Under the pieces are notes generated by a model, which saw only the letters and a list, made by a program, of their open reading frames with translations, was not told the origin of the DNA and did not search any database. The position numbers and the translations under genes were made by a program. Shown here in pieces: positions 8,476-24,770 of a DNA stretch of 64,000 bases; position 1 is the first letter of the stretch; every line of letters starts with the position of its first letter. Source of the stretch: Ottowia sp. oral taxon 894 (GTDB lineage Bacteria > Pseudomonadota > Gammaproteobacteria > Burkholderiales > Burkholderiaceae_C); assembly GCF_001262075.1 (NCBI RefSeq), contig NZ_CP012073.1, positions 620,001 through 684,000 on the forward strand, in the 5' to 3' direction.

Positions 8476-8477
8476 CT

Positions 8478-8493: not shown

Positions 8494-8645
8494 CGAGCGG
8501 CGGGGGTTCTCCCGGCAACTCCCTCTTGGCGTTCAACTTTCCGTGCTATGAGCTCCCGTCCCTGTCTTCGATAGGCGTGCCCGTGTCATCGACTCCATGT
8601 CAACCATTTCGGCCAATTATTGGACTGTTGTGTAGGCCGGCACTC

Positions 8646-8686
8646 CGTAACCTTCGGAGTAGTTCAGTTGATAACGGAGGTTTACG
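8646..8686 (+). promoter_or_regulatory. Shine-Dalgarno-sequestering leader hairpin, copy B
   Basis: Near-identical to the leader at 5961-6001. The stem CGUAACCUUCG pairs with CGGAGGUUUACG and masks GGAGG (8676-8680) before the traK ATG at 8690. The end base pairs differ between the copies but pairing is kept. Confidence 0.6.
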
Positions 8687-8689
8687 GAC

Positions 8690-8968: not shown

Positions 8969-9129
8969 GCAAAGTCCCATGCTCTATCGCTGCAAGCGCA
9001 TGGCTGAAACGCTGTTACCGGCCTCTTGGATCGCTGCAAGCACACGGACGTTGGCAATTTCCGTTGGTTTTCCCGCTGCTGGCGCGCTGTTGCGAAGCAA
9101 TGGTGCGGTTACAGCGCGAAATTCGATGA

Positions 9130-9290
9130 GGCATACGAGGCAAAAACAACGCCGAAAGGCGGGCAGGATGTGTGAAGTAGGCCCACCGCGCAAGCGCAGT
9201 GTTCCTCTTCACTTTCCCTTATTCGCGCCTACGGCGCTCAACGGGCATCCTGCTCTGCGAGGCATCCGGCGACCGCCGGCAACGACATGA
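9130..9290 (-). other. oriT: IncP/RK2-type origin of transfer (oriT)
   Basis: The minus strand reads GGGCCTACTTCACACATCC followed by TGCCCGC. This matches the RK2 nic region, in which cleavage follows ATCCTG (here near 9164-9167). Next to it, minus strand GAATAAGGGAAAGTGAAGAG (about 9215-9234) matches the TraJ-binding arm of RK2 oriT, and CGCCGAAAGGCG (9150-9161) forms the small hairpin beside nic. The spacing to traJ is as in RK2. This is the strongest evidence that the island can be mobilised by IncP-type machinery. Confidence 0.9.
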
Positions 9291-9300
9291 GGACGCCAAG

Positions 9301-9675
9301 ATGGAGGTCAACGAGAACAAGGTGACGAGGAAGGGCAGCCCGCCCATCAAGGTCTATTGCCTGCCCGAAGAGCGGGCCGAGATCGAGGCGAACGCCAAGA
9401 GGGCGGGCGTCAGCGTGGCGCGCTATCTGCGCGACGTGGGCCAGGGCTACCAGATCAAGGGTGTCATGGACTACCGGCACGTGCGCGAGCTGGTGCGCGT
9501 CAACGGCGACCTTGGCCGTCTTGGCGGTTTGCTCAAGCTCTGGCTGACGGATGACGCGCGCACGGCCAAGTTCGGCGAGGCCACCATCCTGGCGTTGCTG
9601 GGCCGGATCGAATCCACACAGGACGAAATGAGCCGCCTCATGAAATCCGTGGTGCAGCCGAGGGCGGGGGCATGA
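9301..9675 (+). CDS. traJ: TraJ relaxosome accessory protein (IncP type)
   Basis: A 124-residue protein of the TraJ/MobC family that binds oriT next to nic and loads the TraI relaxase. Typical features are PPIKVYCLPEERAEIEANAK, an Arc/MetJ-like ribbon-helix-helix start, then AGVSVARYLRDVGQGY and LVRVNGDLGRLGGLLKLWL. The start is ATG at 9301. A KorB-type operator lies just after the stop (9680-9692), in the short gap before traI. Confidence 0.9.
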   Translation: MEVNENKVTRKGSPPIKVYCLPEERAEIEANAKRAGVSVARYLRDVGQGYQIKGVMDYRHVRELVRVNGDLGRLGGLLKLWLTDDARTAKFGEATILALLGRIESTQDEMSRLMKSVVQPRAGA

Positions 9676-9679
9676 TTTT

Positions 9680-9692
9680 TTTAGCCGCTAAA
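9680..9692. promoter_or_regulatory. KorB-type operator 3, before traI
   Basis: TTTAGCCGCTAAA lies 18 bases upstream of the traI ATG, after the traJ stop. The perfect match to the IncP KorB site suggests that the block was once under the IncP global regulators. Confidence 0.8.
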
Positions 9693-9709
9693 ACGCTGGC
9701 GGGCCGGCC

Positions 9710-11524: not shown

Positions 11525-11737
11525 CGAGCGCTTTCACTACCTGGGAGGTGCAGTGCGAGCTTCACCCCCGTACACCGATGTTCAACAGAAATGGCCGGGC
11601 GCTACGGTGTCGCTCAGGTCGGGGTACCGGGACAGCGATACGGCGTGCTGTCTCTGTGATGGCCCAACGCCGCCAGTTGCCGACCAGGCAGCCGGCAGGC
11701 GCAGTGCAGCCGCTCATCACATTCCAGGAACTCGACC
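11525..11737. other. Gap between traI and trbJ
   Basis: 213 bases. One 81-codon frame is open here, but its composition and lack of a ribosome-binding site argue against a gene. The region probably carries the trbJKL promoter, since a KorB operator overlaps the start of trbJ. Confidence 0.4.
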
Positions 11738-12523
11738 ATGAAACACGTCCGTTTTTTAGCGGCTAAAACCGCGCTTGCCGCCTCCCTCCTTGGCGTCATC
11801 GTGACCACGCCGGCCTCGGCCGGCATCCCCGTCATCGACGGCGGCAACCTGGTGCAGAACGTCATGACGGCCATCGAGTCGGTGGCGCAGACGCTCAAGC
11901 AGATCGAGCAGTACCAGACCCAATTGCAGCAGTACGAGAACATGCTGCAAAACACGATGGCCCCGGCGGCCTACATCTGGGATCAGGCGCAGTCCACCAT
12001 CAACGGGTTGATGAATGCCGTCAACACGCTGGACTACTACAGGAACCAGCTCGGCAGTCTCGACACCTACCTGGGCAAGTTCCAGGACGTGAGCTATTAC
12101 CGCAGCTCGCCGTGCTTCTCGGCTGCCGGGTGCTCGGATGCCGAGCGCGCCGCGATGGAGCAAAACCGCCGCCTGGCGAGCGAGAGCCAGAAGAAGGCGA
12201 ACGACGCGCTTTTCAAGGGCCTGGAGCAACAGCAGCGCAACCTGACCGCCGATGCTCGCCAGCTCGAACGGCTCCAGTCCGCCGCGCAGGGTGCGAACGG
12301 CCAGATGCAGGCCATCGGCTTCGCCAATCAGCTCGCCGCCAACCAGGCAAACCAGCTTCTGCAAATCCGCGGCCTGCTGATCGCGCAGCAGAACGCCGCG
12401 ACCGCCAGGATGCAGGCCCAGGCTGATCTTGAGGCCCGGCAGCAGGCGGCGCACGCGACAGCGACGGAATCCAGGATCGGCAAAACAGCCAGCCCGAGAA
12501 ACTGGCTTGAGCTGATCCGCTGA
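11738..12523 (+). CDS. trbJ: TrbJ, VirB5-like pilus-associated protein
   Basis: 261 residues with an N-terminal signal peptide (to about TTPASAG). A long helical region then follows, with GGNLVQNVMTAIESVAQTLK and IEQYQTQLQQYENMLQN, the hallmark of TrbJ/VirB5 proteins that act at the tip of the conjugative pilus. Cysteines CFSAAGC sit in the centre. In this copy codons 6-11 (FLAAKT) encode a perfect KorB operator, so the operator is inside the coding sequence. It is followed closely by trbK and trbL but not by the trbB-I core genes. Confidence 0.9.
   Translation: MKHVRFLAAKTALAASLLGVIVTTPASAGIPVIDGGNLVQNVMTAIESVAQTLKQIEQYQTQLQQYENMLQNTMAPAAYIWDQAQSTINGLMNAVNTLDYYRNQLGSLDTYLGKFQDVSYYRSSPCFSAAGCSDAERAAMEQNRRLASESQKKANDALFKGLEQQQRNLTADARQLERLQSAAQGANGQMQAIGFANQLAANQANQLLQIRGLLIAQQNAATARMQAQADLEARQQAAHATATESRIGKTASPRNWLELIR
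11755..11767. promoter_or_regulatory. KorB-type operator 4 inside the 5' end of trbJ
   Basis: TTTAGCGGCTAAA spans codons 6-10 of trbJ and is translated as part of the signal peptide. It is a perfect consensus match at an unusual, intragenic position. Confidence 0.78.
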
Positions 12524-12539
12524 TCGGGGGGCAGACACC

Positions 12540-12815
12540 ATGCAAAAAACGCTGCTGATCGCCGCCCTCATGGCGGCCTTGCTGGCTGGCTGCGAGAAGC
12601 AGCCACCCGCGCCGGTCATGCCCGAAGTGAGCGACGCCAACTGTCAGCTTCCCAGGATCATGGAGATCAAGGACAAGGCGACGCGAGAAGCCTTTGCCGG
12701 GAAGTGCGCACGCCGCTCGCTCACCGGCGGCGGCATTGCACCGACCAAAGACCCGAAGAACTGGCTGGAGCTGATCGACCAGACGACCCCGAAGGGGCAG
12801 GAGGCAAAACCATGA
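12540..12815 (+). CDS. trbK: TrbK-like entry-exclusion lipoprotein
   Basis: A 91-residue protein with a lipoprotein signal peptide: LIAALMAALLAGCEKQ, with the lipobox LAGC. It sits between trbJ and trbL as in IncP plasmids, where TrbK is an inner-membrane lipoprotein that blocks entry of a second related plasmid. Its stop overlaps the trbL start (ATGA). Mature-part cysteines in ANCQLP and GKCARR fit TrbK. It may protect the host from redundant transfer even though the T4SS here is incomplete. Confidence 0.82.
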   Translation: MQKTLLIAALMAALLAGCEKQPPAPVMPEVSDANCQLPRIMEIKDKATREAFAGKCARRSLTGGGIAPTKDPKNWLELIDQTTPKGQEAKP

Positions 12816-14473
12816 AAGCACTGCACAAGGCGGCGCTGATCGGCGTCGCCCTCGCGCTCTACTCCACCGCCGCATCGGCCCAGCTCACCAACCAGGGGAT
12901 GCTTGACCAGGTAGTGACGGACTTCGCCTCAGCGGCGAGTTCCTGGCAGGTCGCCGTGATGAATGCGGCCATGTTCTTGTTCTGGACGCTGGGCACAATC
13001 TCGCTGGTCATCACGTTCGGCTTCATGGCGCTGCGCAAGGCCGACATTGGCGAGTTCTTCGCCGAGTTCATCAGGTTCATCCTGTTCTTCGGCTTCTTCC
13101 TCTGGCTGCTGCGCTACGGCCCGACCTTTGCCGGCTCGATCATTCGATCACTGCGTCAGCTCGGGGAACAGGCTTCTGGCGTGTCCTCGGTGACACCCTC
13201 GGGCATCGTGGATGTGGGGTTCCTGATCTTGAAACAGGCCCTTGCCAACCTGTCGGCCTTCTCGCCTGTCGATAGCGTCATTGGTGTGGCCTTGAGCCTC
13301 GGCATCCTGATCCTGCTGACCATCGTTGCCGTGAATATGTTGCTGCTGCTCGTGTCGAGCTGGATTTTGATGTACGCGGGCATCTTTTTCCTGGGGTTCG
13401 GTGGCTCGCGTTGGACGTCCGACATGGCGATCAACTACTACAAGACCGTGCTGGGTGTGGCCGTGCAGATCATGACGATGGTGCTCCTGGTCGGCATCGG
13501 GAATGATCTGCTTACCAGCTTCTACGCCAGGATGAACACCGGCACGCTGAACTTTGAAGAGCTGGGCGTTATGCTGGTTTTCTGCGTGGCGCTGCTCATG
13601 CTGGTCAATCGTGTGCCCCCTCTGGTCGTCGGCATCATCACCGGCTCGGGTATCGGCGGCGCGGGTGGCATCGGCAACTTCGGCGCAGGTGCTGCCATTG
13701 GTGCGGCTATGGGCGCGGCGAGCATGGCCGCCGGTGCGGCAAGCGTGGCCGGCGCGGCCGTGATGGGTGGTGCGGCCTCGGCCGCCGGCGGCATGTCGGC
13801 GATCAAGGCAGCGTTCGAGAAAGCAGGGTCTAGCGCAGGCGGTGAATCGGGCGGAATGCCCATGCTCGGCGGTGGCTCCGACTCCGGTAGCGATGCAGGC
13901 TCGTTTGCGCAAGCTGCTGGCTTTGGTGGCGGGTCAAGCTCAGGTGCGGGCACCACTACACCACTTGCACAGGCCGCCGGTTTCGGCAGCAGCTCGGGCA
14001 GCGGTGCCAGCGGCTCAGGTGGAAGCAATGGGCAGCAGCCCGGTAAATCGGGTGGAGGTTCCAGCTCGAAGGGTGGCGACGAAGCCGGCAGCAAGAAAGC
14101 CCAGCAAGGCGGCCAGCAGGCCGCACCAGGCAGCACCGGCCCCGGCTTGCTGGCCTCGGCCGCATCGGCGCTTGGCACGGCGGGCCGCGTGACAGCCGAC
14201 GCCGGCGCGAACCTGATGCAAGGCGTCGGAGAGGTTGCGAAGGCCAAGGCCGTCAGCATCCGCGACGCCGCCGCCGAGCGCATCGCCGACACCACCGGCG
14301 GGAAGATCGCGGCGGCGATCAGGGCGAGCGCGGAGAGCGACCAGGCCGGCGCTGTCGAGGCGGTGCCGACATTCGGTGGCAACAACCTGGCAGGGGCCGA
14401 TTCGGCCGCTGCCGATCCTGATGATGAAGTGGCCGCGTTCGCCAACCGCGAGCACGGTAAATCGGAGGCGTGA
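12812..14473 (+). CDS. trbL: TrbL, VirB6-like inner-membrane T4SS protein
   Basis: 553 residues with a signal peptide ending near AASAQL and about six hydrophobic segments between residues 50 and 310 (for example FLFWTLGTISLVITFGFMAL and FILFFGFFLWLLRYGP). A long Gly/Ser/Ala-rich tail from about 310 onwards contains two copies of an AQAAGFG motif. This is the layout of TrbL/VirB6, which forms part of the inner-membrane channel. It starts at ATG 12812, overlapping the trbK stop. It is the last T4SS gene here, and trbB-I are missing. Confidence 0.9.
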   Translation: MKALHKAALIGVALALYSTAASAQLTNQGMLDQVVTDFASAASSWQVAVMNAAMFLFWTLGTISLVITFGFMALRKADIGEFFAEFIRFILFFGFFLWLLRYGPTFAGSIIRSLRQLGEQASGVSSVTPSGIVDVGFLILKQALANLSAFSPVDSVIGVALSLGILILLTIVAVNMLLLLVSSWILMYAGIFFLGFGGSRWTSDMAINYYKTVLGVAVQIMTMVLLVGIGNDLLTSFYARMNTGTLNFEELGVMLVFCVALLMLVNRVPPLVVGIITGSGIGGAGGIGNFGAGAAIGAAMGAASMAAGAASVAGAAVMGGAASAAGGMSAIKAAFEKAGSSAGGESGGMPMLGGGSDSGSDAGSFAQAAGFGGGSSSGAGTTTPLAQAAGFGSSSGSGASGSGGSNGQQPGKSGGGSSSKGGDEAGSKKAQQGGQQAAPGSTGPGLLASAASALGTAGRVTADAGANLMQGVGEVAKAKAVSIRDAAAERIADTTGGKIAAAIRASAESDQAGAVEAVPTFGGNNLAGADSAAADPDDEVAAFANREHGKSEA

Positions 14474-14475
14474 CT

Positions 14476-14733
14476 ATGAAACGTAGTGGCTTTTTCGACT
14501 GCTTGGCGCTCGACCAGGTGCAGCGGCTGGCAGTGGAGTTTGAGCAGCCTGGCGATCAATCAACCGAGCTTGATGCAGCGGCGGAAGTTTCGGCCTTTGT
14601 TGATCGCTCTGCTCCGTCTGCCATCGAGGCCACCAGGCCGGCGGCCAGGTCATCGAGCAACAGCTACAGCGGCAGCAACAGGAACACGCCGCTAGCAGAA
14701 GCTGCCGGCTTCTACAGCAGCGGCCAGCGGTAA
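14476..14733 (+). CDS. Small hypothetical protein after trbL
   Basis: 85 residues, two bases after the trbL stop, so probably translated with it. The sequence is Ser/Ala-rich and ends NTPLAEAAGFYSSGQR, which mirrors the TTPLAQAAGFGSSSG motif in the tail of TrbL. It may be derived from a duplicated trbL tail. No known domain; trbM does not match. Confidence 0.6.
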   Translation: MKRSGFFDCLALDQVQRLAVEFEQPGDQSTELDAAAEVSAFVDRSAPSAIEATRPAARSSSNSYSGSNRNTPLAEAAGFYSSGQR

Positions 14734-14796
14734 AGCGCGCCGGCCGGCGTGGGGCCGGCCGACACTTCCACAACCCACCTGATAGAGAGGTGAATC

Positions 14797-15030
14797 ATGG
14801 CAACCCTGAATCCTACCAACGCAATCGCAACCCAGGCAGTTCATCATGCGGCCGCGCAACTCGCCGCCCTGGACTGGATCGACCAGGACGCGGCGCGGCA
14901 ACTCTCACCGATGGCTGAGGCCGTCGCCAATATGTTCATGGTGCTGTACTACCAGGCCGAGACGGGCCGAGCCACGCGGGACGATTTCCGCCAGGCCCTG
15001 GATGCGGTGCGGCAGTCACTCGCCGCGTAG
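14797..15030 (+). CDS. Small hypothetical protein, last gene of the trb operon
   Basis: 77 residues with a good ribosome-binding site (GAGAGG) and the start MATLNPTNAIATQAVHHAA. It is helical, with the pattern DWIDQDAARQLSPMAEAVANMF. It is followed at once by a strong terminator (15051-15080), which supports its being real and the last gene of the transcript. Function unknown. Confidence 0.65.
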   Translation: MATLNPTNAIATQAVHHAAAQLAALDWIDQDAARQLSPMAEAVANMFMVLYYQAETGRATRDDFRQALDAVRQSLAA

Positions 15031-15050
15031 GCTCGCGCACCAGGAACAGC

Positions 15051-15080
15051 AAGGGCGGCCGGTGGCCGCCCTTGTCGTTT
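15051..15080 (+). terminator. Terminator after the trb operon
   Basis: AAGGGCGGCC-GGT-GGCCGCCCTT is followed by GTCGTTTTC. A strong GC stem lies 20 bases after the last gene of the operon. Confidence 0.85.
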
Positions 15081-15084
15081 TCGG

Positions 15085-15240
15085 GCCTGCATCGCTGGAA
15101 GCGACGATGCGCGCCGGCGTGCTCGAGCATCGTCAGATCGAGCGATGACGGCCGCCCTGCGCCTTCCCCTTGGAGTGGATCTCGCATCGTCATTTCCGGC
15201 GATGAGATCCACCTGCAGCACCGCCAGAAATGGCGATGCT
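15085..15240. repeat. CATCG-stem hairpin cluster 2
   Basis: Four successive short hairpins with CATCG/CGATG stems: 15088-15107, 15124-15143, 15186-15205 and 15216-15235. The last is CACCGCCA-GAAA-TGGCGATG, with a GAAA tetraloop. Similar elements, including ATTTCCGGCGA and a GGCTGGCCA-like word, are in the cluster at 8320-8475. Confidence 0.5.
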
Positions 15241-15251
15241 GGCCAGCTTCG

Positions 15252-15599
15252 CTATTTGATACCGTGCATGGCCCGCGCACATGCCGCAACTTCGCGGGCG
15301 TGCTGGATACAGGCCGGGTCGGCCGTGGCTTCGGCATCGGCCAGGAACGCGGCTATGGCTTCGACGGTTTGCAAGTCCTCGGGCAGCAGCTCACGGCCAA
15401 CGGCCGGGGCATCCACCCATTCGCGCTGCTCCGGCGGCAATGGATACTGGCCGGATGCTTCGGCTTCGGCCAGCAGCTCATCAAGCGTGTAGCGCACCCG
15501 GTCGGCCGAGACGGCGCGGGCCGGGTCGGCTTTGAGCGCGTCATGGGCCGGGCCGGCCTTCTCATGCAGCCAGGTTGCCAGGTTCTTCGGGTCAATCAT
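15252..15599 (-). CDS. Plasmid-maintenance-like protein of a two-gene operon
   Basis: 115 residues starting MIDPKNLATWLHEKAGPAHD, then RAVSADRVRYTLDELLAEAEASGQ. Its start overlaps the stop of the upstream HTH gene by four bases (ATGA-type), so the two form an operon. Antitoxin/toxin-like pairs of this kind sit in plasmid backbones, but I cannot name the family. It is acidic, has no catalytic motif that I recognise and ends with Cys-rich AACARAMHG. Confidence 0.5.
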   Translation of the reverse strand: MIDPKNLATWLHEKAGPAHDALKADPARAVSADRVRYTLDELLAEAEASGQYPLPPEQREWVDAPAVGRELLPEDLQTVEAIAAFLADAEATADPACIQHAREVAACARAMHGIK

Positions 15600-15961
15600 C
15601 GGCTGGCCTCATCGAGCAGCGCCGCCAAGCGTTCCAGGTCATCGACCGAATACCCACGGAAGCGGCCGGCCAGCAGCTCGCCCAGCTCGGCCAGCGTCAA
15701 TCCAAGAGCCGCCGCCGCTTGGTCGTTCGACAACTGCCGCGCCGTGATCGCCTGGCTGATCTTGGTTACGAGCGTGGTCTTGGCCTGCATTTCGTCGGCG
15801 CCGGGGCGGCCCAGGTCGGCATAGACGTTCGTGCTGCCTTCATCAATTTCCGGCGTGTCGTCGGCGTTCAGGTCGGCGAACAGGGCTTCGACGGAATCGA
15901 GCCGCTTCAAGCCGCCCCGTCGGGCTTCTCCAATTGCTTCCTCGGTTTCCTTCTTGCCCAT
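15596..15961 (-). CDS. HTH domain protein, antitoxin-like
   Basis: 121 residues. The C-terminal half (TTLVTKISQAITARQLSNDQ, AAAALGLTLAELGELLAGRF, SVDDLERLAALL) is an XRE-type helix-turn-helix of the HigA antitoxin kind. The N-terminal half (MGKKETEEAIGEARRGGLKR) is charged. I chose the internal ATG at 15961, because the 42 codons upstream cover the promoter-like intergenic DNA shared with kleE. It is probably autoregulating. No toxin of the RelE type is visible next to it. Confidence 0.62.
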   Translation of the reverse strand: MGKKETEEAIGEARRGGLKRLDSVEALFADLNADDTPEIDEGSTNVYADLGRPGADEMQAKTTLVTKISQAITARQLSNDQAAAALGLTLAELGELLAGRFRGYSVDDLERLAALLDEASR

Positions 15962-16099
15962 CGCATACCTCACGCTGATTGTCTTGCCCGGCTTATTGAA
16001 GCTGTCACATTGAGCTAGGGCGCATATAGATTGCACTTTGTTAAATGCGCCTGCCGGGCTATAGTAGGCGCACTTAGGTATACCCAAACGCGCCTATCC

Positions 16100-16429
16100 A
16101 TGTCCAATGTCATCAAGTTCCCCAAGAAGGTCGAGCAGCCCGCCGCGCCCGAGCCGGTGAAGCCGGCCCCAGCTTCCGTGCCTGGCGTTCAGAAGGTTGA
16201 TGGTCATGGGCTGCTGGCCGGCCTGGTCAAGTTCGTATGGATGGCGACGGTACTGGTCTGGCCGATCTTCAGATGGATGGTGTCCCTTGAGGTGCTGTTC
16301 CAACTCCTGCGGATGTTTTACCACTGGCGCACGCCGGGCGTGCATGCCGGCTGGACGTTCCTGCTGCACTTCGCCGCGCTGACCGCGCTCACCTACTTTG
16401 TCTCCGTCTACAAGCCGAAGGGGCTTTGA
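16100..16429 (+). CDS. kleE: KleE-like plasmid stable-inheritance protein
   Basis: 109 residues starting MSNVIKFPKKVEQPAAPEP and ending LTYFVSVYKPKGL, with two hydrophobic segments (FVWMATVLVWPIFRWMVSL, GWTFLLHFAALTALTYFV). This fits the small membrane protein KleE of IncP kle operons, which are host-range and stability genes. A promoter-like TTGCAC ... TATAGT pair lies at about 16032-16065, and the palindromic GGTATACC at 16076 may be its operator. It ends one base before the resolvase gene. Confidence 0.7.
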   Translation: MSNVIKFPKKVEQPAAPEPVKPAPASVPGVQKVDGHGLLAGLVKFVWMATVLVWPIFRWMVSLEVLFQLLRMFYHWRTPGVHAGWTFLLHFAALTALTYFVSVYKPKGL

Positions 16430-16430
16430 C

Positions 16431-17147
16431 ATGAATGCCAGCCCAATGATGGCGCGGGTCTATCTGCGTGTCAGCACGGACGCGCAGGATTTGGAGCGCC
16501 AAGAGGGGATCATCACGGTCGCGAAGGCTGCTGGGTACTACGTCGCCGGCATCTACCGCGAGAAGGCATCCGGCGCGCGCGCCGACCGGCCCGAGCTGCT
16601 GCGCATGGTGGCCGATCTGCAATCGGGCGAGGTGATCATTGCCGAGAAGATCGACCGAATCAGCCGCCTGCCGCTGCCCGAGGCCGAGCGCCTGGTGGCC
16701 TCGATCCGGGCCAAAGGCGCACGCCTAGCCGTCCCCGGCGTGGTCGATCTATCCGACCTGGCGGCCGAGGCCAAGGGCGTTGCCAAAATCGTTCTGGAGG
16801 CCGTCCAGGACATGCTTTTGAAGCTGGCCCTCCAGATGGCCCGTGACGACTACGAAGACAGGCGCGAACGCCAGCGCCAAGGCATCGAGCTGGCGAAGGA
16901 CGCCGGCAAGTATCGGGGCCGCCGCGCTGACCCGAAGCGCCATGCCCAGGTTGTCGCACTGCGCAAGTCCGGCCACAGCATCACCCGGACGGCCGAACTG
17001 GCCGGGTGCAGCCCATCCCAAGTGAAACGGATATGGGCAGTCGAAGTGAGCCAGGCCGAGGCGGTGCGCATGGGGGCCTTCCGCGAGGACGCATTGACCG
17101 AGGCTGACGCGATGGCGGCTGCCGATCAGGAGGGTACGAAGGTATGA
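16431..17147 (+). CDS. Serine recombinase of the ParA/resolvase type
   Basis: A 238-residue small serine recombinase resembling the IncP-1 ParA multimer resolvase. The catalytic Ser15 lies in YLRVSTDAQD, and the conserved Arg block is present at EKIDRISRLPLPEAERLVAS. The C-terminal helix-turn-helix is HAQVVALRKSGHSITRTAEL then AGCSPSQVKRIW. It would resolve plasmid dimers. It lies 300 bases from the left junction of the nested 28.5-kb element. Together with the TnpR gene on the far side it is a candidate for the integration of that element. The ATG at 16431 follows the kleE stop directly. Confidence 0.88.
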   Translation: MNASPMMARVYLRVSTDAQDLERQEGIITVAKAAGYYVAGIYREKASGARADRPELLRMVADLQSGEVIIAEKIDRISRLPLPEAERLVASIRAKGARLAVPGVVDLSDLAAEAKGVAKIVLEAVQDMLLKLALQMARDDYEDRRERQRQGIELAKDAGKYRGRRADPKRHAQVVALRKSGHSITRTAELAGCSPSQVKRIWAVEVSQAEAVRMGAFREDALTEADAMAAADQEGTKV

Positions 17148-17837: not shown

Positions 17838-18755
17838 TCAGTTTCCTTGCATCAACCTGAGCACCGGATTGGCGGGCGGCACCGGCAGCACCCAGCGATC
17901 CGGCGCCATCAGAACGATGGCAGAGAGCCGGCCAACGCTGGCTCCGCCTCGGCCGAGTACCTCGTAGCGCAGGATGTTGACCTTGCTGCGGCCCTGGCCG
18001 GCGCCCATGCGGTGCCAGCCGGCCTTGATGACTTCGCGCTGCACTTGAAGGCCGGTGGCCTCCGCTTCGGACTCCAGGCCGGTTTCCCGGGCATACAGCT
18101 TGAAAATCAGCGGCGAGACCAGTGCCATGCCTTCTTCGGTGAAATGCACGGGGGCGCCTGATTCGTTGTACTTGATGACGCGGGCAGCCAGGCCCTGCTG
18201 GAGCCAGTGCACGAACGCGATGGCCTTCTCACTCGGCTCCGCCTTGCGAGAGGCGGTGTCCTGCGGCAGCTCGGGCAAGCTGGGCGTGAGCACGACAGGG
18301 GCTGTGACGGCTGCGCGTGCAGTCGTGTGCGCGCCGGCATTCGATGCCAGGCCTGGCGCCTGGAACAGCGGTCGAACGGCTGCGCTTTGGCGGGTTTCCG
18401 ACGGGGTTTTTGCTTCGATTTGCAACGGCGCTTTTGCTCCGGGTTTCCCGGCGCTCCGTTCGGGGTTCGTCCTGGCCTGGCGGGTTTCGCCGCTTCCGAC
18501 GGCGGTACGTGCTGCGACAGCTTCTGGAGACCTCGGCATTGCCGCAGGCGTGGGCGCCTTGACGGGGCGGGCTGGCGCCGTTGGCTTCATGGCCCTGACC
18601 TTTGGTGTGGCCGCGCCTGACAGGCTGCGCACGTCATCGTCCTCATCCAGCCAGCCGCTGTCAGGCGCATCCATGATGAAGAGTTGAACTACGGCACTGC
18701 CTGGTCTGATTTCCATTAGATCCGTCAGGAACTCGTTGTAGGTCAGGTCATCCAT
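17838..18755 (-). CDS. MobH relaxase C-terminal domain protein (TraI_2_C-like)
   Basis: 305 residues. The last 130 (KAIAFVHWLQQGLAARVIKY, APVHFTEEGMALVSPLIFK, VIKAGWHRM, NILRYEVLGRGG and PVPPANPVLRLM) match the C-terminal domain of MobH/TraI_2 relaxases of PFGI-1 type ICEs. The N-terminal HD-type nickase domain is missing. In its place are 45 unrelated residues and a long Ala/Pro-rich linker, so this is either a truncated relaxase or a stand-alone accessory version. It overlaps the upstream gene by eight bases. Confidence 0.72.
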   Translation of the reverse strand: MDDLTYNEFLTDLMEIRPGSAVVQLFIMDAPDSGWLDEDDDVRSLSGAATPKVRAMKPTAPARPVKAPTPAAMPRSPEAVAARTAVGSGETRQARTNPERSAGKPGAKAPLQIEAKTPSETRQSAAVRPLFQAPGLASNAGAHTTARAAVTAPVVLTPSLPELPQDTASRKAEPSEKAIAFVHWLQQGLAARVIKYNESGAPVHFTEEGMALVSPLIFKLYARETGLESEAEATGLQVQREVIKAGWHRMGAGQGRSKVNILRYEVLGRGGASVGRLSAIVLMAPDRWVLPVPPANPVLRLMQGN

Positions 18756-19113
18756 GGCTGTGGTACTCCCTGACCTTGTCGCGCCATTCCTGGCATGCCA
18801 CGGGCGCGAGCGTCAGAAATGCCAGCGGACAGCTGTAGCGGTACGGGTGCATCGACTCGTCCATGGGTTTGTAGCCCCACTGCCCACCGCTGCATTCCAG
18901 GAGGTTGCAGCAAATGATGCAGTGCTTGCGGGGTGCCTGGTCTGTGCTGTCTGCATCAGGTGCAAACCGAAGCTCGACCACGGACCAAAGAACGCTCTCC
19001 GCTTCGTTGAAGACATAGGCCAGGGTGGTGCTGGTGCCCTTTTCGCTGGCCGATGCGCGTGTCAGCGCCTGGATCAGCTCGGAGCGTGACTTGGTGGTGA
19101 ATAGCCATCCCAT
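18748..19113 (-). CDS. ICE-associated conserved hypothetical protein
   Basis: 121 residues, starting MGWLFTTKSRSELIQALTRA, with a central Cys pair CIICCNLLECSGGQWGYKPM and the ending CQEWRDKVREYHSHG. Small proteins with this MGWLFT start are common in ICEs (I associate them with DUF6927, but I am not sure of the number). It overlaps the downstream relaxase-tail gene by eight bases and has a structured leader of the shared type upstream (19114-19185). Confidence 0.62.
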   Translation of the reverse strand: MGWLFTTKSRSELIQALTRASASEKGTSTTLAYVFNEAESVLWSVVELRFAPDADSTDQAPRKHCIICCNLLECSGGQWGYKPMDESMHPYRYSCPLAFLTLAPVACQEWRDKVREYHSHG

Positions 19114-19185
19114 TTCGGGTCTCCTGTGAAGAATGCTGGAGCACCTCGCCCGGCCGGGACAGGGTTGCCCAGCGGGGTCGATGAA
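19114..19185 (-). promoter_or_regulatory. Shared structured leader, copy 1
   Basis: Minus strand: TTTCATCGACCCC, then a GC hairpin with CTGTCCCGGCCGGG, then AGGAGA before the ATG at 19113. It has the same layout as the leaders of six other genes in 19-25 kb. Confidence 0.55.
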
Positions 19186-19246
19186 ATGCCTGCCTGCCAG
19201 GCAGGTGGCTCAGGTCCGGAAACCTGGTGGATTGGTTGCAGGCCGC

Positions 19247-19618
19247 TCAGGCCAGGTGTTGCCTGAGTTGCTGCCAGGCCGTCACCAGCAAATACCAGCG
19301 GCGGTCAACCATGACGAATGGTTCGAGGTAGAAACGGTGCCGGGCCATGGCCGCCAGGTGATGCAGTGGCACGGCCAATGCGTCCGGCAGCCGGTTGCGC
19401 CACCGGGGCGCCGGCCAGCGCGCTTCAATGCGCATGCCCGCAGGCAGGCCGCCAGAGCCATCGCCGGAGACGGTGATCAGGGTGCGAAGCACACCGTCAT
19501 TGCCACGGCTGGTCTCCAGGACAATCACGTCCTTGCTGTCGGTCTGGGATTGGGCATAGCCCGTGAGGCGCCCGGTCGTGCGCGAACGAACGTAACCGGA
19601 ACGGGTGTAGTTCTTCAT
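19247..19618 (-). CDS. ICE-associated hypothetical protein
   Basis: 123 residues from the ATG at 19618, which has AAGGAGA upstream. A frame extension further upstream covers the structured leader and was rejected. It starts MKNYTRSGYVRSRTTGRLTG, is basic, and has strands such as DVIVLETSRGNDGVLRTLIT and a C-terminal FVMVDRRWYLLVTAWQQL. No family recognised. It is monocistronic, with its own leader of about 170 bases. Confidence 0.6.
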   Translation of the reverse strand: MKNYTRSGYVRSRTTGRLTGYAQSQTDSKDVIVLETSRGNDGVLRTLITVSGDGSGGLPAGMRIEARWPAPRWRNRLPDALAVPLHHLAAMARHRFYLEPFVMVDRRWYLLVTAWQQLRQHLA

Positions 19619-19790
19619 GGTGGTTCTCCTTGAACAAAAAAGGGACCACCGGCCCCGGCGGGACATGGTGGCCCCGCTGGGTGGATGAAGGTGCGATGCG
19701 TACCCGGCCGGCTTTCGTTGGCCTGCCGCGCTTTCAGGGTTGAGCGCGGCTGAAACCGTTCTTTCGGTTGCGTGCAGAAGGTTTCCCGGA
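19619..19790 (-). promoter_or_regulatory. Shared structured leader, copy 2 (two-domain)
   Basis: Minus strand, 5' domain: CGCGCTCAACCCTGAAAGCGCG (an inverted repeat around CAACCCTGAA), then a GGGTAC word. 3' domain: CTTCATCCACCC, then GCGGGG-CCACCATGTCCC-GCCGGGG, then AAGGAGA. Copies at 21934, 23121 and 24586 have both domains. Confidence 0.65.
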
Positions 19791-19888
19791 AGCCACTGCC
19801 CAAGGCAGAACGTGGACGGAGGCTTCGGGGAACCCATCTGCGATGGGTTCGACATGCGGTCCATTGTGGCCGCAGGCAGGTGGGCAGG

Positions 19889-21016
19889 TCAACTGATCCT
19901 GACGATCTGGCCCAGGCGCTCGCCTGGCGTCAACTCGATGGCGTTGATCACGGGTACGAACTTGTCGATCATGGTGATCGTCTCCGTCACCTGGCCTTCG
20001 GCATCCGTGTCGTAGCTGACGCTGCGTTCCTTTTTCTTGAAGGTATCGCCCTTGATGAGAAAGGTGCGTCCGTCGGTGGACTCGATGCGGCCCGTGACCT
20101 GACCGGCCGCCAGGGCCAGTGCCAGGTGCCACTGGCTCATGTTGCGCAGCGGCCGGCGATGGGCCGAGCGTGCCTGGTTGAAGCAGTTGCCAAAGCCGGG
20201 CCACAGCAGACTGTGCTGCCAGCGCTTCAGTTCCTCGGCCAGCTGTCCTGCGTCCAGGCGAACGGCATGGAAGTCGAACTCGCTGCCTTCGGCAATGTGC
20301 GGCAGCTGGTAGGGCTGCTCGTGCCAGTGCGGTGGCAGCACCTGCTCGCGCAGCCCGCCAGCCTGCGCCTGGCAGAGCATGTCCAGCACGTCCTTGCGGG
20401 GATGTCCTGGCCGGCTCTTGACGCCGAAGATGACGCATTGCTGGAACTGCTGCTCAGGCGCCATGAAAAACCGCAGCGCCGTGAAGTGGCGGGCCAGGTA
20501 GGTCCGGATTTCGTCATCGAGTGCGTAGTACGGCACGATGAAGACCAGGATGCCGCCTGGCATGAGCAAAGGCGCGGTTTTCTTGAGAAAGGTGCGCTCC
20601 AGCCGTTCCGCACGGTCGGCGTCGCCATTGGCCTGACTGCTGCCCACGTTGTCCTTGAGGCCGTAGCCGTAGGGCGGGTTCAGAAACAGCAGGCCGATGC
20701 TGCGGGGCTTGACCACCACGTCATGCACGTCGGCGTGGATGACCCGGTCCAGCAGGGTCTTTGCGTGCCAGGCCCGTTCGCGGTCGAACTCGATGCCCAG
20801 GGTTTCAATGCCGGCGCCCTCCTCCTGGCCCTGCTGCCGCAGGCCGTGGGCCAGATCGGCCAGCGCGGTGCCTTCGCCGCAGCACGGGTCCAGCAGCCGC
20901 ATGGGCATCTGAGCTGGTTCCAGCGCATTCTGGATGCGCTGCAGGGTTTCGGCGTCCGTGGGGAAGTAGCCGTTCTTGATGAAGTTGCGCGCCAGGCGCG
21001 CGAACATGAGTGCCAT
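19889..21016 (-). CDS. DUF6094-like class I SAM-dependent DNA methyltransferase
   Basis: 375 residues. SAM-binding motif I is DPCCGEGTALADLA (from residue 43), and the catalytic NPPYG (113-117) is the N6-adenine/amino-methyltransferase motif IV. Between them lies GIEFDRERA (motif II). The C-terminal third (PYQLPHIAEGSEFDF onwards) is specific to the ICE-borne family. In these elements the enzyme probably modifies the element's DNA against host restriction, or acts in replication; its target is unknown. No restriction gene accompanies it. A compact leader hairpin precedes the ATG. Confidence 0.82.
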   Translation of the reverse strand: MALMFARLARNFIKNGYFPTDAETLQRIQNALEPAQMPMRLLDPCCGEGTALADLAHGLRQQGQEEGAGIETLGIEFDRERAWHAKTLLDRVIHADVHDVVVKPRSIGLLFLNPPYGYGLKDNVGSSQANGDADRAERLERTFLKKTAPLLMPGGILVFIVPYYALDDEIRTYLARHFTALRFFMAPEQQFQQCVIFGVKSRPGHPRKDVLDMLCQAQAGGLREQVLPPHWHEQPYQLPHIAEGSEFDFHAVRLDAGQLAEELKRWQHSLLWPGFGNCFNQARSAHRRPLRNMSQWHLALALAAGQVTGRIESTDGRTFLIKGDTFKKKERSVSYDTDAEGQVTETITMIDKFVPVINAIELTPGERLGQIVRIS

Positions 21017-21085
21017 GGGTATCTCCTGTCACAAATGGAGGCAGGAGATGTCCCCGCAGGGACATGCCCTGCCGGGTGGGTAAAG
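21017..21085 (-). promoter_or_regulatory. Shared structured leader, copy 3 (short form)
   Basis: Minus strand: TTCTTTACCCACCCGG, then CAGGGCATGTCCCTGCGGGG nested in GGCAGG/CCTGCC, then CAGGAGA before the ATG at 21016. Confidence 0.5.
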
Positions 21086-21113
21086 AAGGCTGGCCACACG
21101 GGCCAGGCTGGGT

Positions 21114-21494
21114 TCAGTCTTCCATGACCCGCTCGTGGTCGATGATTCGCCACTGGCGGGCCAGCTCTTCGAACTTGCGGCCACCGTCGTCAAGGTAGGC
21201 GTGGACTTCCTGTCTGCAGACACGGGCATCCATGTGCAGCACCCTGATGCAGTGCTCAAAGAGGCTGCTGTCCAGCATCCGAAGATCCGTCAGGTTGAAT
21301 GGAAAACGTGAACCGTTGTACAGGCCCAGCAGGAAGGCCGCGATGACACGGCACTGCCCTGAATGGCCACACGCCGCCTCGTACAGCGTCCTGAGCGACT
21401 CGACGCCACGGGCCTCGATTTCCGGTCTGGCCTGGCTTTGTGCATGGGCTGCTTCCAGCGCGCTTAACAGATGGTCTTGTTCTGAAGAATTCAT
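21114..21494 (-). CDS. ICE-associated conserved hypothetical protein
   Basis: 126 residues, starting MNSSEQDHLLSALEAAHAQS. It has the distinctive core FLLGLYNGSRFPFNLTDLRM and LDSSLFEHCIRVLHMD, followed by AYLDDGGRKFEELARQW. Proteins with this core recur in SPI-7-type elements (possibly DUF7673). Function unknown. AGGAGAG precedes the ATG. Confidence 0.65.
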   Translation of the reverse strand: MNSSEQDHLLSALEAAHAQSQARPEIEARGVESLRTLYEAACGHSGQCRVIAAFLLGLYNGSRFPFNLTDLRMLDSSLFEHCIRVLHMDARVCRQEVHAYLDDGGRKFEELARQWRIIDHERVMED

Positions 21495-21654
21495 GGTCGG
21501 CTCTCCTGGTTGTGAAGGTGTTTTGTTGCTGCGACACTTGCGGGCATGACTGAACGCCCACGCCTGACGACGATTGATGGTGGTGATGCTCCCCGGCAGG
21601 TCGATCTGACCGACCTGCTGGAGAACATGGACCTGAGGGACGCCTTGCCGCTGC

Positions 21655-21933
21655 TCAGGCAGCTCGGGCGCCGGCGCAAGCCTGCGGCCAATGCCGCTCT
21701 CGCAGCAGTTGGTGCAGGGACGCCGGCAACTGGGTCACCAGCACGGGATCGGCCAGACAGCCACGCACCAGCCTGATTGCCGAACACACCTGGTGGGGTG
21801 CGAACTGCTCACGGGCCTGCTCCAGCTGCTGGTATTCGTCCTCTCCGGCCGCAGAGAGCCAGTCGTTGAAGATGGCGTGAAACTGCTTGCGCAGCTTTAC
21901 TTCCTGCTCGCTGGGATTGCTCTTGAAACTCAT
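21655..21933 (-). CDS. ICE-associated hypothetical protein
   Basis: 92 residues from the ATG at 21933 (MSFKSNPSEQEVKLRKQFHA, then IFNDWLSAAGEDEYQQLEQA). A frame extension upstream is the structured leader. Helical, with one Cys (QVCSAIRLVRGCLADP). No family recognised. Confidence 0.6.
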   Translation of the reverse strand: MSFKSNPSEQEVKLRKQFHAIFNDWLSAAGEDEYQQLEQAREQFAPHQVCSAIRLVRGCLADPVLVTQLPASLHQLLRERHWPQACAGARAA

Positions 21934-22080
21934 GGTCGTCTCCAATGGAAAGTGCGGGGACGGCCCTTCCCTGCGGGGATGGCGCATCCCCACGGGGTTG
22001 ATGAAATGACGTGTACCCGGCCGGCTTTCGCCGGCATGACGCGCTTTCAGGGTTGAGCGCGCCTGAAACCAGTCCCTGGT
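21934..22080 (-). promoter_or_regulatory. Shared structured leader, copy 4 (two-domain)
   Basis: Minus strand 5' domain CGCGCTCAACCCTGAAAGCGCG then GCCGGCGAAAGCCGGC (a perfect stem with a GAAA tetraloop) and GGGTAC. 3' domain TTTCATCAACCCC, GTGGGGATGCGCCATCCCCG, then TGGAGA. It is the cleanest copy. Confidence 0.68.
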
Positions 22081-22181
22081 CTGGCATGGATGGTTTCCCC
22101 AAATCCTGCAGGACACCGGGCAGGACTTGGGGAACCCATCGGGATTCCCAGGCTTGGAAAACGGTTTGAACATCTACCCCC

Positions 22182-22508
22182 TCGCTGCAGGCCAGGCACA
22201 ACGGTGTCCCTGGAGGATCTGCATGCGGATCGCCGAAGTCGGAGGTCGAGGCGATCAAGGAATGGCGCGAGGGTCAACGGCTCCGGCTTGGCTTTCGCCG
22301 GGCACGGCCCATTCGCAAAGCTGCGGCGCATGAGGTCGCCGCCACCCAGCTCGAACGCCGCCCGCGCCGCTCAGGGCGCAGGGCTGGCCTGTGGACCGCG
22401 TTGTTCCCTGCCTCTCATCCAGGCGGCGAGCGACCCACAGGCCAGCCCTGCGCGCGTGTGCGCACGGGCCGGGCAAAGAGTGGCGTCAAGCGTCAAGCCA
22501 CTCTGGCG
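22182..22508. other. Noncoding gap with a 19-bp inverted repeat
   Basis: No convincing gene. GCGCAGGGCTGGCCTGTGG at 22376-22394 is repeated exactly inverted at 22435-22453, with a 40-base loop. It lies between the end of the DUF3275 gene and the next leader on the minus strand, and could be a transcriptional barrier or a recombination scar. Confidence 0.55.
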
Positions 22509-23120
22509 TCATGGTGCAAACCAGGTCTGCTGCTTGGAGTCGAAGCGGTAGCCACGGGCCTTGAGGTCTGCGGTCTGCTCACGAAGGATCGTCCGGTCGA
22601 TGGTGAGATCGAGCTTGATGGGTTCGCCCTGCTCGATGGCTTGCAGCATCTCGCTGTCATAGATGGCGCTGGCCTGTGCCGTGCCGGCGCAGGAACTGGC
22701 GCTGGCAACGCCCGCGAGTTTCTTCTTGAGGTTGGCCAGGGCACTGGCCGGTCTGGACCCGGATGCTTCTTGCGCTGCCGCGGCCGCTGAAGCCGTGGCG
22801 CGCGGGGGCGCTGGTTCATCCACCGGATCAAGTTCCACGGGTTCCGCTGCCAGCTGACGCTGGTCCTCGGTATGTACCTGCAGGTCATGCAGACGTGCGC
22901 GGATTTCCGTGACGGCCTTGCCGTAGGCGATGTACTGGCCCAGGTAGATTTCGCTAATCCACACGGTTGCCTCGTATTCGCCTTCCTCGAACTGCTCCAG
23001 GATGGCGTCCTTGACCTTGAACTCGCCAAAGTCGGTGGTCAGGTCGGCGACACAAAAGGGGCCGTTGCGGCTTTGCCGGATGTGCTTGATGCGCAGTACG
23101 GCGTTTTCTGCGGTGATCAT
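22509..23120 (-). CDS. DUF3275 family protein
   Basis: 203 residues from the ATG at 23120, with CAGGAGA upstream. The N-terminal half matches the ICE protein family DUF3275: AVLRIKHIRQSRNGPFCVAD, LTTDFGEFKVKDAILEQFEEG and YEATVWISEIYLG. The C-terminal part has a Pro/Ala linker and the sub-domain DLKARGYRFDSKQQTWF. The N-terminal fold suggests an OB-like DNA-binding protein. Function unknown; it is part of the conserved accessory set of PFGI-1 type elements. Confidence 0.82.
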   Translation of the reverse strand: MITAENAVLRIKHIRQSRNGPFCVADLTTDFGEFKVKDAILEQFEEGEYEATVWISEIYLGQYIAYGKAVTEIRARLHDLQVHTEDQRQLAAEPVELDPVDEPAPPRATASAAAAAQEASGSRPASALANLKKKLAGVASASSCAGTAQASAIYDSEMLQAIEQGEPIKLDLTIDRTILREQTADLKARGYRFDSKQQTWFAP

Positions 23121-23395
23121 GGCGGCATGTCTCCTGATCAAGCCGGACCACGTGCCTCCCCTTTCGGGACGGCCTGGGTCCCGGCTGGGTTGAATGAAAG
23201 GAAACGCCCGGACCGCTTGGAGCAGTCAGGGCGTCCCATGGGCTTGAAGTGTCTGGCAGGCTTGCGAGCCTGTCAGGTTTGGCACGGGATTCGTTGAGTG
23301 TGTGCAGTTCAGCGAAACGTGCCTACGTGTACCCCGGCGCACAAGGCGCGTACACGCTTCAGGGGTTGACGTGTCTCATGGCCCGAGGGCCGTGG
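23121..23395 (-). promoter_or_regulatory. Shared structured leader, copy 5 (two-domain, long)
   Basis: Minus strand 5' domain ACACGTCAACCCCTGAAGCGTG with GTACGCGCC...GGGGTAC. There is a middle hairpin around GACAGGCTCGCAAGCCTG. 3' domain CTTTCATTCAACCC, then GCCGGGACCCAGGCCGTCCC, then CAGGAGA. Confidence 0.6.
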
Positions 23396-23462
23396 CGGTT
23401 GTTCCAGTGATACCGCCAAACACTCGCAAAGAGGCTGAATTATCGGGTGAAATCTTTCGATT

Positions 23463-23789
23463 TCAACCCGCCCTGCCCCCGACAAGCGCCAAGGCTCGCG
23501 GGGTCAGCTGCCATACCTCGGCCATGACGCAGCCCGTGGGAACGCGTCTTCCGGTGTCCCTGAACAGGCCTGTCGCCAATGCCGGCTCCCTGAACGGCTC
23601 GTTTTCGCTCCAGGTCTTGACCAGAATCTCGTCCGGCCCGATTGAGGCCTCCGGGATATTGACGGTCAGAACACCGTAAGCCTCGCCTTCATCCGGTTGA
23701 AGAAAATGCAGGGCCAGCCGCTTGTTCCGGTAGCAGTCGGTATGGATGTCAAGTTCTTGCCCATAGGCATGCAGACTTCCGATGCGCAT
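23463..23789 (-). CDS. DUF4313-like protein
   Basis: 108 residues from the ATG at 23789 (MRIGSLHAYGQELDIHTDCY, GEAYGVLTVNIPEASIGPDE, VKTWSENEPFREPALATGLF). It matches the small DUF4313 family found in mobile elements. It has a beta-rich fold and no catalytic motif. It lies downstream of the STY4534 gene, separated by a terminator and a hairpin leader. Confidence 0.72.
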   Translation of the reverse strand: MRIGSLHAYGQELDIHTDCYRNKRLALHFLQPDEGEAYGVLTVNIPEASIGPDEILVKTWSENEPFREPALATGLFRDTGRRVPTGCVMAEVWQLTPRALALVGGRAG

Positions 23790-23845
23790 GATGGTCTCCA
23801 GTAAAACGGAGAGCGCCCCCTTGGGGATGGCTCCCCTTGGGGTGG
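23790..23845 (-). promoter_or_regulatory. Shared structured leader, copy 6 (short form)
   Basis: Minus strand: TTATTTCCACCCC, AAGGGGAGCCATCCCCAAGG, then TGGAGACC before the ATG at 23789. Confidence 0.5.
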
Positions 23846-23849
23846 AAAT

Positions 23850-23892
23850 AAGAAAACCCCTCGATCCGCCATCAAGCGAATACGAGGGGTTG
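23850..23892 (-). terminator. Terminator after the STY4534-family gene
   Basis: Minus strand: AACCCCTCG, a 20-base loop, CGAGGGGTTTTCTTATT. It lies 15 bases after the stop of the 23908-24585 gene and isolates it from the DUF4313 gene. Confidence 0.75.
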
Positions 23893-23907
23893 GAGGACTG
23901 ACCTGTA

Positions 23908-24585
23908 TCAGGCGGCTGCGCGATAGCGTTCACCCCGGAAGGTGTGGCCTGCGCTGGCTGGCTGATAGGCACGTCCCTGCGGGCGTGCCTGGCGGGTCAT
24001 GGCTTGTGGACGCGCTTGCTGCTGGCCGTTAGGCTGCATGCGTGTCGTGGCCGGGCGCTGCGGTGCTGGCGCTGCGTCCCCGGGCACGCCGGCATCGGAT
24101 TCGCTGTCGCCGGCCTCTTCAGGCATGGCTTCAGCTTCGGGCGGCGTAGCGTCGGGATCGCGTCGGTACACGCTCTCGCCGTCAACGGTGATGCTGTTGA
24201 TCAGAAGCAGGCGTCCCTTGATGAGAGACGCCATTTCCTTGCGGCCGGTCGGGCGACCGTCCTGATCGCGCTCATCACGCTCGTATACGTGGGGATAGAT
24301 GTCACCCACGCGAAACGAGACAAAGACCTTGCGTCGTGCCTCGACCGCCTCCTGCAGTTGCTCGACCATCTGGATGGCTTCGCTTCCGCTGACCCGAAGG
24401 TCGAAGTAGGTGGTGTTCGGCTCGTTGGCATCGCCGCGCAGGGCGTTGATGCTGCAGGCAAGGAAAGGTTGGCCACGGCGACCAGCTTTCTTGCTGGATT
24501 CAACCCAACGGATACGGTTTAAGTATCCCACGCCGTTGACGTGCAGGTTGAAGTGGCTGGATTGGGCTTGTGCGGAAGCGTTCAT
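23908..24585 (-). CDS. STY4534 family (DUF3577) ICE replication-associated protein
   Basis: 225 residues. The first 150 match DUF3577/STY4534, a conserved ICE protein thought to act in element replication: FNLHVNGVGYLNRIRWVESS, FLACSINALRGDANEPNTTYFD and RVSGSEAIQMVEQLQEAVEA. The tail is Ala/Gln/Arg-rich and disordered (RPATTRMQPNGQQQARPQAM). It has the fullest leader of the cluster. A conserved RNA upstream of DUF3577 genes has been described in the literature. I cannot verify that this is the same one. Confidence 0.85.
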   Translation of the reverse strand: MNASAQAQSSHFNLHVNGVGYLNRIRWVESSKKAGRRGQPFLACSINALRGDANEPNTTYFDLRVSGSEAIQMVEQLQEAVEARRKVFVSFRVGDIYPHVYERDERDQDGRPTGRKEMASLIKGRLLLINSITVDGESVYRRDPDATPPEAEAMPEEAGDSESDAGVPGDAAPAPQRPATTRMQPNGQQQARPQAMTRQARPQGRAYQPASAGHTFRGERYRAAA

Positions 24586-24770
24586 GATGGTCTCCAAGAA
24601 AGTGGACTCGGAAACCACGCAGCCCAGCACCAGCCTTGAGGCCGGGGACAGGGATGCGCGATCCCTGTCCGGGTTGCAAAGATGAAGGTACTCTGGAGCC
24701 GGCCTTGGGAGCCGGATCGTGCGCCTTTCAAGAGTTGAGGCGCCTCGTGTTGCCTTTCGGCAGATCACGA
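24586..24770 (-). promoter_or_regulatory. Shared structured leader, copy 7 (two-domain)
   Basis: Minus strand 5' domain GAGGCGCCTCAACTCTTGAA then AGGCGC, and GGCTCC/GGCCGG. 3' domain CTTCATCTTTGCAACCC, a perfect stem GGACAGGGAT-CGCGC-ATCCCTGTCC, then TTGGAGACC before the ATG at 24585. Confidence 0.68.

Follow-up and report, generated by a model that had tools for sequence, protein, structure and literature searches.

Introduction

A strand that pairs with the Shine-Dalgarno (SD) sequence and is common to two mutually exclusive helices is known from riboswitch expression platforms and from translational attenuators. In the mRNAs of type I toxins, such as hok and aapA, the leaders are metastable, and a sequence imitating the SD further upstream competes with it for the anti-SD strand. 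Here we describe a family of mRNA leaders found seven times in a minus-strand gene module of Ottowia sp. oral taxon 894, within 64,000 nt of contig NZ_CP012073.1 (positions 620,001 to 684,000, forward strand; this whole stretch is hereafter called the window, and positions are counted from its first letter). The leader recurs in other mobile elements. We consider it likely that the family is a two-state translational switch placed before individual genes of DUF3577/STY4534-type mobile elements.

The leader shares with riboswitch expression platforms and translational attenuators the anti-SD strand that takes part in two exclusive helices. It differs from them in that no conserved ligand-binding domain is apparent in the leader itself, that 56 of 142 leaders follow an ORF (open reading frame) within 40 nt, and that one and the same element has it at many unrelated genes. 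With leaders of the hok/aapA type it has in common the upstream SD mimic competing for the anti-SD strand, but the sequence and the gene context are different, and no toxin peptide or antisense RNA turned up at the leaders, where no dedicated search for them was made.

The radC RNA (Rfam RF01754) is an orphan structure, which a table entry of Weinberg et al. (2010) gives as a certain RNA with a probable cis-regulatory role and an open status as a switch (PMC2864571). Like the leader, it is an orphan cis-regulatory candidate at the same kinds of genes in the same elements. The STAXI motif, according to its entry in the same source, occurs near ssb, topoisomerase, antirestriction and integrase genes and consists of repeated pseudoknots with UUCG loops (PMC2864571). 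It resembles the leader in being a structured element near such genes, while pseudoknots with UUCG loops, as given in that entry, are unlike the leader. The consensus of the DUF3085 RNA (RF02959) ends with CAACCCacCGGG, which resembles the start of the leader, and one weak match overlaps the leader of gene 21016 (21072-21158, 19.7 bits, E 6; the gathering score is 40.6). As a further 5' domain this RNA was found in none of 274 genomes, a search of unproved sensitivity, since the control genomes were blank too.

At the gathering level of Rfam 15 no family covered a leader, either in the window, where only traJ-II and PtaRNA1 were found, or in seven loci (143 kb), where only radC was found; identity of the leader with a known Rfam family is ruled out at that level for these sequences. 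Scans by E-value of the region, of 15 loci and of three loci gave only sub-threshold matches at chance level, besides radC in locus L002. The first-pass annotation of the window had referred to a reported conserved RNA motif named for DUF3577. No such Rfam match appeared on any scanned sequence and no paper on it was found. Nor did we find a published description of such a leader, which is weak evidence, since the literature search was thin on subscription journals.

Results

Leader architecture and the seven copies of the window

The pattern first emerged from a comparison of the leaders that precede DUF3577 homologues in 15 genomes of the class. The leader is approximately 70-90 nt long and its elements follow in a fixed order, i.e., a pyrimidine-rich UUUCAUC, C1 (ACCC), X (GGGGA and variable letters), C3 (UCCCC), G4 (GGGG), Y (variable letters and UCUCC), a U-rich loop, Z (GGAGA and variable letters), and AUG. 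Y is the anti-SD strand and lies just before the ribosome-binding site. It is complementary to Z, which comprises the ribosome-binding site and the bases after it, and the same strand is complementary to X, which forms the 5' arm and loop of hairpin 1. Since Y is complementary to both, X resembles Z, and the pairings X:Y and Y:Z are mutually exclusive. This dual complementarity of the strand before the ribosome-binding site is new relative to the first reading.

The first-pass annotation had claimed one shared leader design at seven minus-strand starts, 19113, 19618, 21016, 21933, 23120, 23789 and 24585, and the design is indeed present at all of them. A covariance model, R1 (80 positions; its eight pairs all belong to P1 and P2), was trained on 70 leaders, none of them from this locus, and it recovered all seven as full-length minus-strand matches ending exactly at the starts. 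Five of the matches were strong and two weak; near-identical relatives (in locus L018) of the two best-scoring leaders, 21933 and 19618, were in the training set. The only further match in the window up to E 10 was a 32-base plus-strand stretch within leader 21933. Over the whole 2.9-Mb genome, E 0.1 was passed by five of the seven leaders and by no other site.

The cleanest copy, at gene 21933, occupies 21931..22008 (this and all following leaders are on the minus strand; X 21980-21991, Y 21955-21966, Z 21934-21943; R1 E 4.1e-12), with duplex energies of -20.3 kcal/mol for X:Y and -10.4 for Y:Z. The leader of gene 19618 (19616..19692; X 19666-19675, Y 19641-19651, Z 19619-19629; E 1.9e-11) has corresponding values of -20.1 and -11.9 kcal/mol, and six T directly after Y. 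R1 and the duplexes also mark the leaders of gene 23789 (23787..23853; X 23829-23836, Y 23807-23817, Z 23792-23799; E 5.8e-7) and of gene 19113 (19111..19188; X 19160-19170, Y 19137-19147, Z 19115-19124; E 1.6e-6). The fifth strong copy (21014..21087; X 21059-21070, Y 21042-21053, Z 21017-21026; E 3.5e-6) precedes gene 21016, a DUF6094 gene by Pfam. The two weak matches belong to the DUF3275 gene 23120 (Pfam; 23118..23200; X 23171-23182, Y 23144-23157, Z 23123-23134; E 0.02) and to the DUF3577 gene 24585 (Pfam; 24583..24684; X 24656-24665, Y 24609-24621, Z 24586-24595; E 0.052). The latter leader is divergent, with an extended hairpin 1 and a Y:Z duplex of -14.3 kcal/mol. According to gene calls, Pfam and R1, the seven genes form together with the DUF7673 gene 21494 an eight-gene module (18748..24585, minus strand), in which gene 21494 alone is without a leader despite its AGGAGA site.

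Covariation of the two exclusive pairings

Relatives of the DUF3577 protein were found at 288 places in genome contigs, and the best 80 loci were taken with at most 10 kb on each side. A core pattern, defined without any demand for X:Y or Y:Z pairing apart from the GGAG letters, gave 266 matches in 97 sequences, whereas a single dinucleotide-shuffled version of these sequences gave two. The matches include near-duplicates; 251 stand before an ORF of at least 50 codons, 230 are unique, and 148 leaders from 59 loci are non-redundant, i.e., below a k-mer similarity cut-off, with L001 excluded as a copy of the window. Ninety-one of the 148 met the length limits, and the 70 training leaders were taken from these. 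At E 0.01 R1 found 354 matches in 93 sequences.

In a swap test the pairing energy of each strand with its own partner was compared with that obtained with partners taken from other leaders (148 non-redundant leaders, 2000 permutations). Own partners paired at -11.20 kcal/mol and swapped ones at -8.54 (standard deviation 0.16) for Y:Z, and at -13.47 versus -10.05 (0.18) for X:Y, corresponding to z of about -17 and -19. P1 (-6.56 versus -5.82, standard deviation 0.10) and P2 (-9.14 versus -7.81, 0.11) behaved alike, and no permutation of 2000 reached the own-partner value for any of the four. The result was again 0 of 2000 when the variable letters alone were used. X:Z had no own-partner advantage (195 of 2000), and the 5' flank, also tried against the region that precedes the SD, was rejected as its partner for want of any signal (1924 of 2000). 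In 130 of the 148 leaders, the portion of Y used by X and the portion used by Z have at least half in common.

Both pairings kept the own-partner advantage when the test was confined to 25 leaders of DUF3577 genes (z -4.6 and -4.7). On an alignment of 50 of the 51 DUF3577 leaders (L013, with a long insert, was left out) the covariation score was 0.171 versus 0.128 in shuffles for Y:Z and 0.274 versus 0.177 for X:Y, both with 0 of 500, and one X:Y pair occurred as AU22 CG13 UG4 GC3 GU2 UA1. Letters of ICEHin1056 differ widely, since its host is AT-rich. Fifteen leaders of pKLC102 and ICEHin1056 gave z of -5.4 for Y:Z and -7.5 for X:Y, with 0 of 20,000 each. At E 0.7 or below R1 matched 17 starts in these elements, and all of them except 48769 and 26219 were included. 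Where the SD was altered to GGAA (L130 13738 and L129 21374), Y was altered to match. For the seven leaders of the window, with segments chosen by hand, 72 of 5040 permutations (Y:Z) and five of 5040 (X:Y) did as well as the own partners.

Covariation in these sequences bears out Y:Z and X:Y and, when families are compared, C1:G4 and X:C3 as well; it shows selection on mutually exclusive pairings, one of which covers the ribosome site. The functional core is the Y strand common to two exclusive helices, beyond the GGGG...CCCC hairpin alone. Alternative pairing that would control the SD or a terminator, a mark of riboswitches, is seen here in the covariation of X:Y and Y:Z, which share Y. The earlier suggestion of selection on structure holds, as complementarity is kept while letters change in the 148 leaders. 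Recent duplication without compensatory change is ruled out by the swap tests on these, on the DUF3577 leaders and on pKLC102/ICEHin1056.

Distribution of the leader

The leader was found in 23 of 274 genomes of the class, a DUF3577 gene in 15 and both in 14 (Fisher p 1e-16). Nine genomes had the leader without a DUF3577 match (G107, G051, G077, G089, G152, G154, G179, G249 and G263), so the leader is also present on elements without a DUF3577 gene. In a sample of the phylum it was found in nine of 299 genomes, including one that does not belong to the class. The locus closest to the window is L018, from Comamonadaceae bacterium OH2545_COT-014, the DUF3577 protein of which is identical to that of the window.

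The proteins downstream of 140 of the 148 leaders were scanned and comprised 26 DUF3577/STY4534 (an ICE, i.e., integrative and conjugative element, replication protein by NCBIfam name), 13 RadC, seven DUF3275, five DUF6094, three SNF2-type helicases and three DUF932. All 125 non-redundant leaders of loci L018-L097 were on the strand of the DUF3577 gene. In the pKLC102 stretch, ten of 12 plus-strand genes at 20.9-28.8 kb have the leader (eight at E 0.0015 or below, two weak), while none of the remaining 32 annotated genes, pilus and transfer genes included, does. The ICEHin1056 copies, with E values between 3.5e-6 and 0.49, precede the genes of STY4534, DUF3560, radC and a zincin-like metallopeptidase (gene at 49985); others lie at 14301, 48769 and 49210. 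These counts support the first-pass interpretation in two points, in that further elements have the leader and that accessory genes of unrelated kinds use it. A leader-like match in pKLC102 (L129 22559-22632, E 0.0007) has no annotated start at its end, and perhaps belongs to an unannotated small gene.

Proposed two-state switch

In the closed state C1:G4 and X:C3 would form one long hairpin, and Y:Z would hide the SD site and the bases before the start codon. In the open state Y would lie on X and C3 on G4, with Y off the SD site, and translation would presumably be on. The control strand may be C1 with its unpaired, G-poor 5' flank; what frees or holds C1 could be a trans factor, a domain further upstream (for instance the radC RNA), or a ribosome terminating just upstream. 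The closed state is the predicted default in most copies: the mean unpaired probability of the SD was 0.13 in folded leaders and 0.29 at 400 other starts, and the X:Y fold was favoured in only 18 of the 148 leaders. In the best X:Y fold the SD often takes another partner; as it is mostly re-paired there, release of the site is something that we infer.

The switch offers a testable mechanism for a leader family standing before many genes of a major group of ICEs. X, Y and Z of each leader can be exchanged by design, and the claim can thus be tested with few constructs.

Evidence against the switch, and alternative explanations

Several results weigh against the switch. Firstly, the closed fold is lower by a median of 5.4 kcal/mol, and the gap is within 4 kcal/mol in 50 of 148 leaders; with Y:Z and P2 disallowed, 24% of the GGAG letters are unpaired in the best remaining fold, compared with 11% in the closed fold. 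Secondly, the swap test is mildly biased on any DNA, as six sets of 148 random sequences, read on both strands, gave z from +0.8 to -2.7. A control made from other gene starts of the same loci was not flat either (z -3.2 and -6.5, with 148 of 334 starts and with 102). We think that this control probably held plus-strand leaders missed by the pattern, because minus-strand control starts were flat (Y:Z z +0.3, n = 64; X:Y z -1.1, n = 17); the cause is unproved. Thirdly, P1 and P2 had no excess covariation on the DUF3577 alignment, two-sided pair changes and further pair types were not clearly above shuffles there, and RNAalifold on a MAFFT alignment recovered the P2 core only. The last point is the T content after Y, with at least five T in eight bases in 43 of 122 leaders.

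This T content would suit a transcription attenuator, in which X:Y enclosing C3:G4 and the U-rich stretch would act as an intrinsic terminator and C1:G4/X:C3 as the antiterminator. The GC-rich X:Y helix, tails rich in T behind some of the leaders (42-57% T at each position) and clear T runs in window leader 19618 and several ICEHin1056 leaders are consistent with this, but 22 of the 122 tails have at most two T. Moreover, attenuation leaves unexplained the covariation of Y with the SD region, which is 3' of the proposed stop. We regard attenuation as unlikely as the main explanation, although leaders with a U-rich tail may have a terminator role.

A second explanation is that the ribosome site is hidden constitutively and translation is coupled to that of the preceding gene, where Y:Z would keep initiation low unless upstream ribosomes open it and X:Y would be a by-product or accessory. 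The SD is predicted closed, and 56 of 142 leaders begin within 40 nt of the stop of a long upstream ORF. However, the remaining 86 are further from the upstream ORF, a 150-nt RNA domain intervenes in 44 of 150 leaders of radC loci, and the X:Y covariation is at least as strong as that of Y:Z. Coupling as the whole explanation is accordingly judged to be improbable.

The conserved UUUCAUC-ACCC-GGGGA letters, and the likeness of X and Z (longest shared word 2.86 versus 2.51 when swapped), could also be understood if hairpin 1 were the operator of an RNA-binding protein and X/Z likeness a second binding site, with feedback exerted by a protein that the element encodes. Each leader has its own variable letters in X and in Z, which nevertheless match its own Y, and a single protein would hardly read them, which makes an operator very unlikely. 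A structure of the transferred single DNA strand, e.g., a single-strand promoter with no RNA role, would suit conjugative elements with structures on one strand only (125 of 125 leaders of L018-L097) but is highly improbable, as the conserved pairing is bound up with the SD and the start codon, a link that matters only in mRNA.

The radC RNA and other upstream domains

The two-state switch may also serve domains further upstream. The radC RNA is a separate 149-nt domain, and the Rfam model ends before the leader. A model of it made in this analysis, R2, found 89 copies in 93 sequences. The 3' end directly adjoins a leader in 44 of 81 copies, a leader follows within 600 nt on the 3' side in 72, and there is none in nine; near-copies L062, L068, L072, L083 and L089, and the radC match of L002, were left out of this count. 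Conversely, 44 of 150 leaders in radC loci (150 of 159 leader matches were kept) have the radC RNA directly 5'. The three radC RNAs on pKLC102 each lie 0-20 nt before a leader, and all 19 gathering-level (40 bits) radC matches in seven leader-rich loci were 5' of leaders. Among the leader matches listed, two of these 19 (L049, and L054 8213-8367) overlap the 5' part of a leader. The leader may thus be the expression platform of the radC RNA, for which it is a candidate.

The radC RNA was present in one of the same 274 genomes, compared with 23 for the leader. No radC RNA was found in the window, where the best R2 match (E 0.092) is inside a gene, and no near-match of the radC leader was found in E. 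coli genomes. In L043, L052, L059 and relatives (Pseudomonas; 9637-9985) the radC RNA does not adjoin the leader of the DUF3577 gene directly but ends a constant 124-127 nt upstream of it.

A hairpin with a UCAACYCUGAAA-type loop is found 5' of leaders in Burkholderiales, the window included (16 of 148, none in five shuffles). The first-pass annotation had assigned a 5' domain to four of the leaders; hairpins were found before all four, although they vary in form. With the loop UCAACCCUGAAA they stand before leaders 19618 (19726..19749) and 21933 (22040..22062), both with a relative in L018. The variants are UCAACCCCUGAAG for leader 23120 (23352..23375, approximately 230 nt before the start) and UCAACUCUUGAAA before leader 24585 (24721..24744). 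A GCCGGC-GAAA-GCCGGC hairpin (22020..22035) lies between the 5' domain and leader 21933; all five are on the minus strand. Since the radC RNA and the UCAAC hairpin occur in minorities, and the 56 of 142 leaders within 40 nt of the end of a long upstream ORF have no room for a 5' domain, the leader is what these regions share, and a 5' domain is an optional addition.

The genes had also been proposed to form an RNA regulon. The shared structured leader of that proposal stands, while joint control by one signal is conjectural. It is possible, though rather doubtful, that the leader is a general expression platform for orphan 5' domains, such as the radC RNA and the UCAACYCUGAAA domain, or for a trans factor reading UUUCAUCAACCC, which would flip many genes of establishment or anti-restriction type together, e.g., on entering a new cell, as an RNA-level master switch of pKLC102/ICEHin1056-type elements. 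If joint control is true, the element itself would carry a post-transcriptional regulon. A search for an element-encoded RNA antisense to UUUCAUCAACCC with at most one mismatch gave 28 matches in listed leaders and 20 outside (13 plus, seven minus), several of the latter being leaders missed by the pattern, and no recurrent antisense site among them; in the window there were seven matches versus 4.2 expected.

Surrounding genes

Directly after the module, and without a leader, follows a TraI_2_C domain fragment of 305 aa (17838-18755, by domain match), possibly the remnant of a larger transfer protein. The plus strand of the window at 1333-17147 is a mosaic island beside the GMP synthase gene, with an integrase (3260-4480), RepC (6920-7978), a traJ-II RNA (9161-9264, Rfam), a relaxase (9710-11524), TrbL (12704-14473) and a resolvase (16398-17147), all on that strand. 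At 14733-15030 a PtaRNA1 antisense RNA (88.3 bits) overlaps the start of the ptaRNA1_toxin gene (14797-15030), and the two make up an intact-looking type I toxin-antitoxin pair.

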